Below are positions 5,682-30,669 of a stretch of 64,000 bases of DNA, in pieces. A program made the position numbers and the translations under genes. The DNA is taken from contig NZ_JAJNCZ010000004.1 in NCBI RefSeq assembly GCF_021026345.1, positions 124,001 through 188,000 of the forward strand. The letters run 5' to 3'. The stretch comes from Rhizobium sp. GN54 (lineage in GTDB: Bacteria > Pseudomonadota > Alphaproteobacteria > Rhizobiales > Rhizobiaceae). How positions within the stretch are numbered: position 1 is the first letter of the stretch; each line of letters opens with the position of its first letter. The notes beneath the pieces are model-generated. The model made no database searches, was not told the origin of the DNA, and worked only from the letters and a program-made list of their open reading frames with translations.

Positions 5682-6530
5682 ATGGAAGGTTTCGGCGTTC
5701 ACACCAGCATGTGGACCATGAACTGGGACCGGGCAGGCGCCGAGAAGGCGATTGCCGGGGCTGTGCATTACAAGATGGACTTCATCGAGATCGCGCTTTT
5801 GAACGCACCCGCCGTCGATACGAAGCACACGCGCGACCTGCTGGAGAAGAACAGGCTGCGCGCCGTCTGCTCGCTCGGGCTGCCCGAACACGCCTGGGCC
5901 TCCGTCCGCCCGGATGCGGCGATCGAGCACCTGAAGGTCGCGATCGACAAGACCGCGGAAATGGGGGCGGAGGCGCTGTCCGGCGTCATCTTCGGCGGCA
6001 TCGGCGAGCGCACCGGAGTTCCGCCGACGCAGGGCGAATACGACAACATCGCTAAAGTGCTCGAGGCGGCCTCGAAGCATGCCAGGCAGTACAATATCGA
6101 GCTCGGCGTCGAGGCCGTGAACCGCTACGAGAACCACCTGATCAATTCGGCCCAGCAGGCGGTCGACATGGTGGAGCGCGTCGGTGCCGACAATATCTTC
6201 GTCCACCTCGACACCTACCACATGAACATCGAGGAAAAGGGTGCTGCCAACGGCATCCTGGTCGCCCGCGATCACCTGAAATACATCCACCTCTCCGAGA
6301 GCGACCGCGGCACGCCGGGCTATGGCAACATTCCCTGGGATGCGATCTATGCGGCGCTGGCCGCGATCGGCTTCAAGGGCGGGCTTGCGATGGAGAGCTT
6401 CATCAACATGCCGCCGGAAGTGGCCTACGGCCTTGCCGTCTGGCGTCCCGTCGCCCGCGACATGGAGGAGGTGATGGGCAACGGCCTGCCCTTCCTGCGC
6501 AACAAGGCCGAGCAGTACGGTCTGATCTGA
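5682..6530 (+). CDS. Ketose 3-epimerase family protein (D-tagatose/D-psicose/L-ribulose 3-epimerase type)
   Basis: This 282-residue TIM-barrel sugar epimerase probably interconverts ketoses at C3. Candidate metal ligands are E144 (GVEAVNRYENH), D177 (HLDTYHMNIEE), H203 (YIHLSES) and E238 (AMESF). The spacings of 33, 26 and 35 residues equal those of the E-D-H-E sites of characterised D-tagatose and D-psicose 3-epimerases. The ATG at 5682 follows AGGAGA; a longer in-frame opening runs back through the permease gene and is not used. Its place before a kinase and an aldolase suggests it prepares the ketose for phosphorylation. The exact substrate is unknown. Confidence 0.8.
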   Translation: MEGFGVHTSMWTMNWDRAGAEKAIAGAVHYKMDFIEIALLNAPAVDTKHTRDLLEKNRLRAVCSLGLPEHAWASVRPDAAIEHLKVAIDKTAEMGAEALSGVIFGGIGERTGVPPTQGEYDNIAKVLEAASKHARQYNIELGVEAVNRYENHLINSAQQAVDMVERVGADNIFVHLDTYHMNIEEKGAANGILVARDHLKYIHLSESDRGTPGYGNIPWDAIYAALAAIGFKGGLAMESFINMPPEVAYGLAVWRPVARDMEEVMGNGLPFLRNKAEQYGLI

Positions 6531-6546
6531 TCAGGTTGTCGAAAGC

Positions 6547-6572
6547 CCGCATTCCCGGGGTCGGGAATGCGG
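6547..6572 (+). promoter_or_regulatory. Intercistronic stem-loop before the kinase gene
   Basis: CCGCATTCCC-GGGGTC-GGGAATGCGG is a perfect 10-bp stem with a 6-base loop, ending 5 bases before the kinase ribosome-binding site (AGGAGGGGA). There is no T-run. It could trim or stabilise mRNA, or tune kinase translation. Confidence 0.55.
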
Positions 6573-28849: not shown

Positions 28850-29080
28850 TCAGTGCTTGCCGGGCAGGCCCTGGATCGCATAGCGGTGCAGGCGCGACGG
28901 GCTTGCGGCGGTGTCCCTGCCCAAGGCCGGTGCCGGATTGCCGGCGTCCGGCCCGGGCGTCTTCATGGCAACCGGCGATCTCTGCCGCTCGGCGCGGTCA
29001 GTGCTGGTGTCGAACACGGTCCATGGTCCGTCCGGCTCGCGCCTTTGCCCGTGAGGCGTGGGCCGCGCCACGGCGGTCAT
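28850..29080 (-). CDS. Possible small hypothetical protein coupled to its upstream neighbour
   Basis: A 76-residue reading frame begins with an ATG overlapping the stop codon of the 68-residue gene (ATGA), the arrangement of coupled genes, and fills an otherwise empty gap. It is polar and proline/arginine rich, with no signal or membrane segment. The stretch DGPWTVFDTSTDRAER is the only part that looks structured. I do not recognise it, and chance openness in GC-rich DNA is possible. Confidence 0.4.
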   Translation of the reverse strand: MTAVARPTPHGQRREPDGPWTVFDTSTDRAERQRSPVAMKTPGPDAGNPAPALGRDTAASPSRLHRYAIQGLPGKH

Positions 29081-29283
29081 TTGGGTTGTTCCGGCATGGT
29101 CAGGGTCAGGAAGCGGCGGAGGACGGAACGGGACGCGTCGTGCAGGGGACCGGCGAGCGGCTTCAGGTTGGCCGTCGTGTAGCCGGCGTTGTGAAGCATG
29201 TCCTTCAGGACGCGTGCGCTGATCTCGCCGGGAACGGGCTTGTCGCCCGTGCGGAACTCGATGTGATGGACATTGGAAGACAT
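29077..29283 (-). CDS. Small hypothetical protein, 68 residues
   Basis: The ATG at 29283 is preceded by a strong GGGAGGG. The protein is soluble and basic at its C-terminal end (HDASRSVLRRFLTL), beginning MSSNVHHIEFRTGDKP. No known domain is recognised. The clear ribosome-binding site and isolated position support a real gene. It may be translationally coupled to the frame that follows. Confidence 0.6.
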   Translation of the reverse strand: MSSNVHHIEFRTGDKPVPGEISARVLKDMLHNAGYTTANLKPLAGPLHDASRSVLRRFLTLTMPEQPK

Positions 29284-29451: not shown

Positions 29452-29481
29452 CTTGTTTTGAACACAATGGCCACCTATATG
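29452..29481 (+). promoter_or_regulatory. Candidate promoter of the upstream RNA element
   Basis: CTTGTTTTGAAC (29452-29463) is followed by CCTATATG (29474-29481). The same 12 bases recur before cspA. The boxes could be read as sigma-70 (TTGTTT-N17-TATATG) or as a heat-shock sigma-32 type (CTTG...CYTATNT); the sequence does not decide. Confidence 0.4.
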
Positions 29482-29552
29482 CCTGTCATCGGCATTGCTG
29501 ATGAGCGCTGGAATGCATCTGTCGCTCGCAATTGCCGTAGTCGCCGCCTGCC

Positions 29553-29628
29553 TTTGACCACGGATGTACTGGCACTGGAAGATAGGCGACCATAGGAAGG
29601 TCGGTGCGGTTTCGCCCCGACCTTTTTT
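29553..29628 (+). ncRNA. Candidate small RNA / orphan copy of the cspA 3' element
   Basis: The 20 bases at 29556-29575 (GACCACGGATGTACTGGCAC) are identical to 30158-30177 after cspA. About 20 bases later an intrinsic terminator (AAGGTCGG/CCGACCTT, 29597-29624) ends in TTTTTT. Here no gene precedes it, but a promoter-like stretch lies 75 bases upstream, so a short RNA of roughly 140 bases could be made. Confidence 0.5.
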
Positions 29629-29774
29629 ATATTGGCGGGTACTGTTCGAACAGGCGAACGTCTTCGCAAGATCTTCTGCCCGGCGCGAGAATATTCTCGG
29701 TTGCATGGGTCCGGATCTGCGCAGTCGACATCGAGTGTCCGGGACAAGCGGCGGGAAAATAAAACGTTTCCGCC

Positions 29775-29803
29775 CTTGTTTTGAACTGGTATTCCGCTAT
29801 CTT
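29775..29803 (+). promoter_or_regulatory. Candidate cspA promoter
   Basis: CTTGTTTTGAAC (29775-29786) and CTATCTT (29797-29803) resemble the promoter stretch 323 bases upstream. It would give a leader of about 120 bases before the cspA start, typical of cold-shock genes. Confidence 0.4.
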
Positions 29804-29928
29804 ATGTTTATCGAACCTTGCTAGCGACTCTTGTCCGCGGCCGAACGGCGCTTTCAGATATCCCTTCATCGTCGATAATTCAGATCGGTCATCGTGACCG
29901 GGCCCACAAGCGATTGAAAGGAATCGTT

Positions 29929-30138
29929 ATGAACACTGGAACCGTAAAGTGGTTCAACAGCACCAAGGGTTTTGGCTTCATCCAGCCGGATAACGGCAGC
30001 CAGGACGTCTTCGTGCACATTTCCGCCGTCGAGCGTGCCGGCATGCGTGGCCTGACCGAAGGTCAGAAGATCAGCTACGACATCGTGCAGGACAAGCGTT
30101 CGGGCAAGAGCTCGGCCGACAACCTGCAGGCCGCCTAA
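29929..30138 (+). CDS. cspA: Cold-shock protein CspA family
   Basis: This 69-residue single cold-shock domain ([23 protein letters not shown]) has RNP1 KGFGFI and RNP2 VFVHIS. It binds single-stranded RNA/DNA and acts as an RNA chaperone. The ATG at 29929 follows AAAGGA; upstream in-frame codons do not resemble the family. The 3' region holds the second copy of the structured element, ending in a strong terminator. Confidence 0.97.
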
Positions 30139-30157
30139 CGCGCTTCATTGCCCCCGT

Positions 30158-30228
30158 GACCACGGATGTACTGGCACGCCGGCGGCAATGCTAAGGAAGG
30201 TCGGGAGCAGTCCCGACCTTTTGTTTTT
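30158..30228 (+). ncRNA. cspA 3' structured element with intrinsic terminator
   Basis: The element opens with the same 20 bases as 29556-29575. It ends in a perfect 10-bp hairpin (AAGGTCGGGA-GCAG-TCCCGACCTT, 30197-30220) followed by TTGTTTTT. It clearly terminates cspA. The conserved 5' portion beyond the hairpin suggests an added function, such as a 3'-derived small RNA. Confidence 0.6.
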
Positions 30229-30429: not shown

Positions 30430-30669
30430 TTGCAGGTACTCGTCAGGGACAACAACGTCGAGCAGGCGCTTCGCGTACTGAAGAAGAAGATGCAGCGCGA
30501 AGGCCTCTTCAGGGAAATGCGGACACGCAGCGCCTATGAGAAGCCCTCGGAAAAGCGCGCGCGCGAGAAGGCCGATGCGATCCGCCGGTCCCGCAAGCTG
30601 GCGCGCAAGAAGGCACAGCGCGAAGGTCTTCTGCCCGCTCCGAAGAAAAAGGTCGCCCGTACCCGCTAG
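30430..30669 (+). CDS. rpsU: 30S ribosomal protein bS21
   Basis: This 79-residue, strongly basic protein begins with the family start [25 protein letters not shown] and has an extended Lys/Arg-rich C-terminus ([20 protein letters not shown]) as in rhizobial homologues. The start is TTG at 30430 behind AAGGAGA. It joins the 30S subunit during initiation. It lies downstream of cspA but is separated from it by a terminator and 200 bases. Confidence 0.96.

Follow-up and report, generated by a model that had tools for sequence, protein, structure and literature searches.

The ar35 family (Rfam RF02346) comprises the SmrB35 (SmelB053) small RNAs of Sinorhizobium. In S. meliloti, SmrB35 was detected as a 139-nt transcript that luteolin stimulates about fourfold; the accessible text of that study gives it as not detectable in nodules (PMC2780559), and a later review tabulates its expression in nodule zone II (PMC7143759). 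Microarray signals of SmrB35 were reported for oxidative and salt stress and, in the available part of the report, not for cold; smB5, the second SmrB35 copy, gave a signal in cold too (PMC2573895). The sharing of a hairpin between the SmelB053 sRNA and 3′-UTRs was published in 2011 (PMC3927594). According to that paper, GGAUGUA is the conserved loop of stem-loop 2 in the SmelB053 family, and 33 related 3′-UTRs exist, 29 of them belonging to cold-shock genes. Its authors suggested an Hfq-dependent action for the related 3′-UTRs and, for the sRNA, a possible role as an ‘interceptor’ by which degradation complexes are sequestered. SmelC691, an 83-nt chromosomal sRNA of S. meliloti (PMC2873474), is described there as stem-loops 2 and 3 with the first absent (PMC3927594). 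Among the matches listed in our literature search, PMC3927594 was the sole paper joining GGAUGUA, cold shock and rhizobia; a search by sequence letters gave a sole match, on human cancer.

The window analyzed here is a 64-kb stretch of the Rhizobium sp. GN54 genome, in which a unit without a gene precedes cspA in the same direction (Table 1). The unit matches the ar35 model over positions 1–144 of 144 and scores 127.1 bits, where the cut-off is 45. When it is aligned to the family consensus, stem-loop 2 with a GGAUGUA loop is found in it, followed by the terminator. The sequence identifies this gene-less unit as an ar35 (SmrB35/SmelB053) sRNA gene, a further copy that stands in tandem with a cspA gene bearing the same 3′ module, and a separate transcript of ~140 nt is predicted from it. 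An earlier note on this DNA had postulated a short RNA at this place. The unit is indeed there, ~145 nt long and with a 3′ half like the cspA 3′-UTR, its transcript being predicted, and the ends proposed for it (~29485 and ~29628) agree with the Rfam match. Its description as a cspA transcription unit ‘stripped of its coding sequence’ was not supported: the repeat search found only the promoter 12-mer and the 3′ module to be shared, and it gave no match between the first stem-loop of ar35 and the cspA leader.

Table 1 Features of the ar35–cspA region (positions in the window)
Feature	Position	Strand	Basis
Predicted ar35 sRNA promoter, CTTGTT ... CTATAT	29452–29480	+	Sequence; pattern retained at relatives' ar35-like loci
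ar35 / SmrB35-type sRNA gene, three stem-loops	29488–29632	+	Rfam RF02346
ar35 stem-loop 2, shared tip TGACCACGGATGTACTGGCAC at 29555–29575	29540–29590	+	Repeat; minimum-energy fold; model R1 52.2 bits
ar35 Rho-independent terminator, AAGGTCGG stem and T-run	29594–29632	+	Fold, sequence
Predicted cspA promoter, CTTGTT ... CTATCT	29775–29802	+	Sequence; retained in tandem loci L021, L042
cspA, single cold-shock domain protein, 69 aa	29929–30138	+	Pfam CSD 9.1e-25
cspA 3′-UTR hairpin, shared tip at 30157–30177	30143–30195	+	Repeat; fold; ar35 model 39.7 bits; model R1 43.1 bits
cspA Rho-independent terminator	30196–30228	+	Fold, sequence
rpsU, ribosomal protein S21, next gene past the cspA terminator	30430–30669	+	Pfam Ribosomal_S21 3.3e-19

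Both repeats that had been noticed around cspA were recovered by the repeat search at the places claimed. The shorter, CTTGTTTTGAAC, lies at 29452–29463 and 29775–29786, and each copy is followed by a -10-like box of the CTAT type (CTATAT at 29475–29480, CTATCT at 29797–29802). The longer, described as 20 bases, extends in full to 21 nt, and a GC-rich hairpin with a T-run follows each copy. Every exact 20-mer that recurs on the + strand of the window derives from this 21-nt block. In first-order random versions of the 1.3-kb region, a repeated 20-mer occurred in 0/2000 and a repeated 12-mer in 128/2000; this randomization rules out chance as the origin of the 21-mer repeat, not of the 12-mer alone, which taken by itself is poor, weak evidence. 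Despite these weak statistics, the predicted promoter 12-mer is retained in relatives: at two other tandem loci, the csp promoter has CTTGTCTTGAAC (in L021) or CTTGTTTTGAAC (in L042), and CTTGTTTNNAACACAATG occurs in 8 of 23 ar35-like loci among the matches listed. A 68-aa open reading frame (MSSNVHHIEF...; 29077–29283, − strand), without a Pfam match, lies divergent from ar35, and the same small frame also adjoins other ar35 copies (in L003, L021 and L042), also one elsewhere in the own genome.

The block follows the cspA stop codon by 19 nt, and the terminator comes next. The cspA 3′-UTR stays under the cut-off of the full-length ar35 model because only stem-loops 2 and 3 have counterparts in it, without stem-loop 1. 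It fits the SmelB053-related csp 3′-UTRs, in which stem-loops 2 and 3 follow a cold-shock domain gene, and in S. meliloti too a second csp gene and rpsU come after a hairpin-bearing csp gene. The cspA thermoregulator family RF01766 was rejected at 21.8 bits, under its cut-off of 78. Another csp 3′-UTR (L080:6449–6574, +) scores 49.0 bits with the ar35 model, above the cut-off, and some ‘ar35’ annotations may therefore be mRNA ends.

The shared module consists of a tip with a bulged A, a CCA/UGG stem and the loop CGGAUGUAC, a covarying basal stem, and then the Rho-independent terminator. In an alignment of 103 sequences (A1), which spans the stem, the bulged A, CCA/UGG and a nine-nt loop, four basal pairs covary, with 88 double-changed cells against 39.8 in shuffles that ignore relatedness; the covariation score is 0.255, against 0.123 shuffled and at most 0.084 in slid controls. 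Most of these sequences were collected through the exact core, so that core constancy in A1 holds by construction, and the four invariant pairs fall inside the searched core and are uninformative. A view independent of the core comes from csp 3′-UTRs read from the stop codon, which are all-or-none: 9 of 17 carry a perfect tip, 8 of 17 have six or more mismatches and none lies between (the 17 are the distinct csp 3′-UTRs left after filtering 30 loci from seven genomes, and orthologues are among them). A copy matching the ar35 model (L268) has CTA/TAG for CCA/TGG with the loop CGGATGAAC, a paired change. The block departs by more than two mismatches in 3 of 55 ar35-model matches; in one of the three, an ar35-like copy, the tip is degraded. 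A peptide encoded in the block (ATG TAC TGG) was rejected as the driver of conservation: as judged by eye, third codon positions do not vary, and the frame after the block varies between copies.

One csp 3′-UTR that is convergent with an ar35 gene (L206; G001, contig C6) has the sequence TGACCGGCAC, in which the loop is missing between the stem ends: TGACC and GGCAC are kept and the intervening 11 nt are gone, a natural loop deletion. In a Rhizobium leguminosarum csp 3′-UTR (L147:6013–6078, +), one perfect copy stands amid a row of hairpins whose GCTGACC/GGCAGC-like stem ends are alike and whose loops are different. Martelella radicis carries two perfect tip copies in tandem after one csp gene (L138:6582–6733, −).

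Five places in the own genome come within three mismatches of the 20-mer (reversed control, 0), namely three ar35 genes, the one after cspA and one other unit; several ar35 copies per genome are the general picture. Across the own genome and 40 relatives, the 19-mer was found with up to two mismatches in 20 of 41 genomes (reversed control, 0), comprising 20/25 of the same family and 0/16 of other families, and of the places with two mismatches, two or more seem to be chance. A covariance search across the order, using a model of the 103 instances, detected it at E <= 0.01 in 70 of the 199 genomes, in many families, with the proviso that the model leans on the core and weak matches near E 0.01 may be chance. 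A scan of named genomes gave at least 119 stretches, with Rhizobium, Agrobacterium, Mesorhizobium, Brucella, Bartonella, Aureimonas, Martelella and Phyllobacterium among the matches listed; about 120 chance matches to a 16-mer are estimated for the whole named collection, and single matches in distant groups therefore mean little. One ar35-like match, 80% identical along 69% of the query, lies at 6410–6549 of plasmid NZ_CP084754.1 of Roseateles sp. XES5, a record named as a beta-proteobacterium, which points to misnaming or transfer.

Conservation of the block beside csp genes in relatives, as had been expected, is borne out: 26 of the 63 exact-core places in the own genome and the 40 relatives are csp 3′-UTRs, 17 are ar35-like and 20 other, and the named set has 44, 4 and 33 of 81, respectively, among the matches listed, all classes being approximate since they were assigned by regular expressions. 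With a simple detector, a terminator was found within ~120 nt downstream in 131/141, against 31/136 and 18/135 in controls shifted by 600 nt. Of the 13 ar35 copies with the highest scores in seven genomes of the genus, seven stand no more than 0.9 kb from a csp gene (three tandem, two divergent and two convergent), perhaps representing three or four independent arrangements, some being orthologous. The block is present on 13 of 33 single-domain csp genes of the genus and missing from the other 20.

A third set of units carries hairpin and terminator and is neither csp nor ar35-like. The CtrA consensus of S. meliloti is given as TAA-N7-TTAAC (PMC3616915). Predicted sites of this S. meliloti type occur within 200 nt upstream, on the transcribed strand, in 15 of 55 third-class units (14/48 in the first set, where the motif was noticed before the test, and 1/7 among independently fetched loci), against 0/88 csp promoters, 0/21 ar35 promoters and 0/166 downstream windows; related copies inflate the count, six being one conserved unit beside a divergent small gene and three coming from Mesorhizobium. 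Before these upstream counts, three loci were set aside as products of chance (L118, L152 and L032, the last resembling by eye the coding sequence of a methionyl-tRNA synthetase), and a unit whose upstream stretch was too short was dropped, taking the first set from 49 to 48.

The third-class unit of the own genome (G000:C26:89022–89087, −, in L005) has a GCGGGG-stem terminator and adjoins a divergent small gene; its relatives are L016, L017, L022, L027, L049, L052, L057, L083 and L101. Upstream in these units, a repeat that can be written TGTCAC-N4-CTGTAAC, which we take to resemble a Pho box, separates the CtrA-type site from a -10-like sequence. The repeat is present upstream in 10/10 and the CtrA-type site in six distinct copies, ~143 nt before the block, where it could serve the divergent gene. 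CtrA-type boxes lie 51–57 nt before the block in L078, L099 and L131 (Mesorhizobium) and in L129 (a Rhizobiales isolate), and half sites 46–47 nt before it in L100 and L143; judging from the sequence, a spacing of 46–57 nt would leave an RNA barely longer than hairpin and terminator. All five S. meliloti copies examined are devoid of CtrA-type boxes, a result against generalizing the CtrA link. One of them, a hairpin-only copy between cpdR1 and ilvD, is probably SmelC691. A record titled pSymB of S. meliloti Ak57 (CP090106.1; loci L255, L263 and L264) is 3.72 Mb long and carries cpdR1, ilvD and ilvN, and looks like a mislabelled chromosome. A plasmid search with the own-genome third-class unit returned one record, a Shinella replicon. 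Our literature search, narrow on this question, found no paper linking the hairpin to CtrA or Pho boxes.

Together, our results suggest that the 3′ hairpin on csp mRNAs is bound by a putative factor for which ar35 is a free decoy; this is the best explanation, and we give it about an even chance (roughly 0.5). The tip is found in csp 3′-UTRs, in ar35 and in other units. By its anatomy, the structure can be regarded as a candidate recognition hairpin, which would work in cis where a csp mRNA carries it and in trans where an sRNA does. The ar35 and cspA transcripts would both end in the same hairpin-and-terminator module, whose tip we infer to be the recognition site for a putative trans-acting factor, the likeliest candidates being an RNA-binding protein and a decay or processing complex. 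Such a reader would set csp mRNA stability or 3′ processing. ar35 and the other hairpin-only RNAs would offer the tip without a coding region, as decoys, and would draw the factor off once their own promoters fire. The competition by a free RNA that the earlier note had imagined is in substance the ‘interceptor’ proposal, as far as the accessible text of PMC3927594 presents it, and this prior proposal supports the model. So do the covarying basal pairs, the all-or-none csp 3′-UTRs, the paired change in L268, the RF02346 membership, the terminators in 131/141 and the seven of 13 ar35 copies near csp genes. The model is weakened by the 20 of 33 single-domain csp genes without the block, by the reported SmrB35 signals in oxidative and salt stress, not cold (in the available part of PMC2573895), by the constancy built into the core of A1 and a shuffle that ignores relatedness, and by the 3 of 55 ar35-model matches in which the block is not found within two mismatches. 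We also count against it that the accessible literature on the hairpin names no reading factor, target or phenotype. Competition for Hfq in particular is weakened: the available text of PMC2848018 reports SmrC9, SmrC15, SmrC16 and SmrC45 in Hfq-FLAG co-immunoprecipitates and SmrB35 as not detected, and its authors allow for a very low Hfq affinity of SmrB35. Hfq is not favoured as the reader of the hairpin.

One other possibility is that the ar35 loop CGGAUGUAC is a base-pairing seed for target mRNAs, and that a processed csp 3′-UTR releases a second sRNA with the same seed. A single-stranded loop held constant in varied stems is indeed what other rhizobial constant-loop sRNAs have, and the published 83-nt SmelC691, described as stem-loops 2 and 3, also speaks for a seed (PMC3927594). 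A seed needs the loop only, yet the bulged A and CCA/UGG are kept in the csp 3′-UTRs read independently of the core, and no anti-Shine-Dalgarno or anti-AUG sequence is seen by eye in the loop; on balance we think this improbable, while taking it seriously. Terminator-proximal hairpins commonly stabilize mRNA, and this general effect, together with the closeness of the hairpin to the terminator wherever one was detected (131/141), would suit a passive 3′ end that merely protects or terminates the csp mRNA, with ar35 a copy lacking a trans role. However, structural protection requires no constant loop, whereas the loop is unchanged in 9/17 csp 3′-UTRs as the stems drift, and several ar35 copies are kept per genome, which makes the passive reading unlikely. 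The palindromic GUAC of the loop could let two tips pair and so join ar35 to csp mRNA, or like RNAs to each other; such a contact would have four pairs only and leave the constant CGGAU part unexplained, and we regard it as very improbable. The loop CACGGAUG, with its GGA within a hairpin loop, matches CANGGAYG, which we take to be the consensus of CsrA/RsmA sites, and would suit a CsrA decoy. CsrA (PF02599) was found in only 1 of 41 genomes and not in the own genome, with positive controls in E. coli, B. subtilis and T. maritima, so that a CsrA decoy is ruled out for the own genome, barring an unrelated protein of like specificity, and deserves next to no credence in general.

Our data narrow the search for a reader, with CsrA out and Hfq probably out. 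The ~20-nt tip with its bulged A is directly usable as bait, and nature offers controls in the copies that lack the loop or whose tip is degraded. If the hairpin-only units are transcribed from the CtrA- and Pho-type sites, they would tie cold-shock proteins to cell-cycle and phosphate control. It is tempting to speculate, though we think it rather doubtful, that the hairpin is an order-wide post-transcriptional tag, free copies of which would come from housekeeping-type promoters (ar35), from CtrA-type boxes (Rhizobium, Agrobacterium, Mesorhizobium and relatives) and from a Pho-box-like site (C26), so that cell-cycle and phosphate signals would set how much csp mRNA is kept through a shared putative tip-binding factor. 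S. meliloti CspA5 raises ctrA translation (PMC5928217), and if the tag reading is true, this effect would close a regulatory loop.

The observation made at this locus is true, but of something already described, the family and its connection with csp genes having been on record since 2011. Added here are the bulged A, the covarying basal stem, the order-wide spread, the all-or-none csp pattern and the third class of units. CsrB/RsmZ-type decoy RNAs have a GGA in a hairpin loop and a proposed sequestration in common with ar35; here there is one tip per RNA, not many, and no CsrA in the genome. A 3′-UTR structure on csp mRNA is also shared with the Hfq-bound E. coli cspA 3′-UTR named in PMC3927594, unlike which SmrB35 was not detected with Hfq in the accessible text of PMC2848018. 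SmelC691 resembles the third-class units in having stem-loops 2 and 3 only (PMC2873474, PMC3927594), and its presumed copy is without the CtrA-type box of 15/55 such units. As far as the available text of PMC3927594 allows comparison, the SmelB053-related csp 3′-UTRs share with cspA both stem-loops 2 and 3 and the csp gene, with no essential difference; our additions are a larger set and finer detail on how the tip is built. Closest of all are ar35/SmrB35/SmelB053 themselves (RF02346; PMC2780559, PMC3927594), which, as described in the accessible texts, are like the unit here over the whole length, with three stem-loops, the GGAUGUA loop, a terminator and several copies per genome. Unlike known ar35, the gene here stands in tandem with a cspA that shares its 3′ module, an arrangement also present in two other genomes of the genus.
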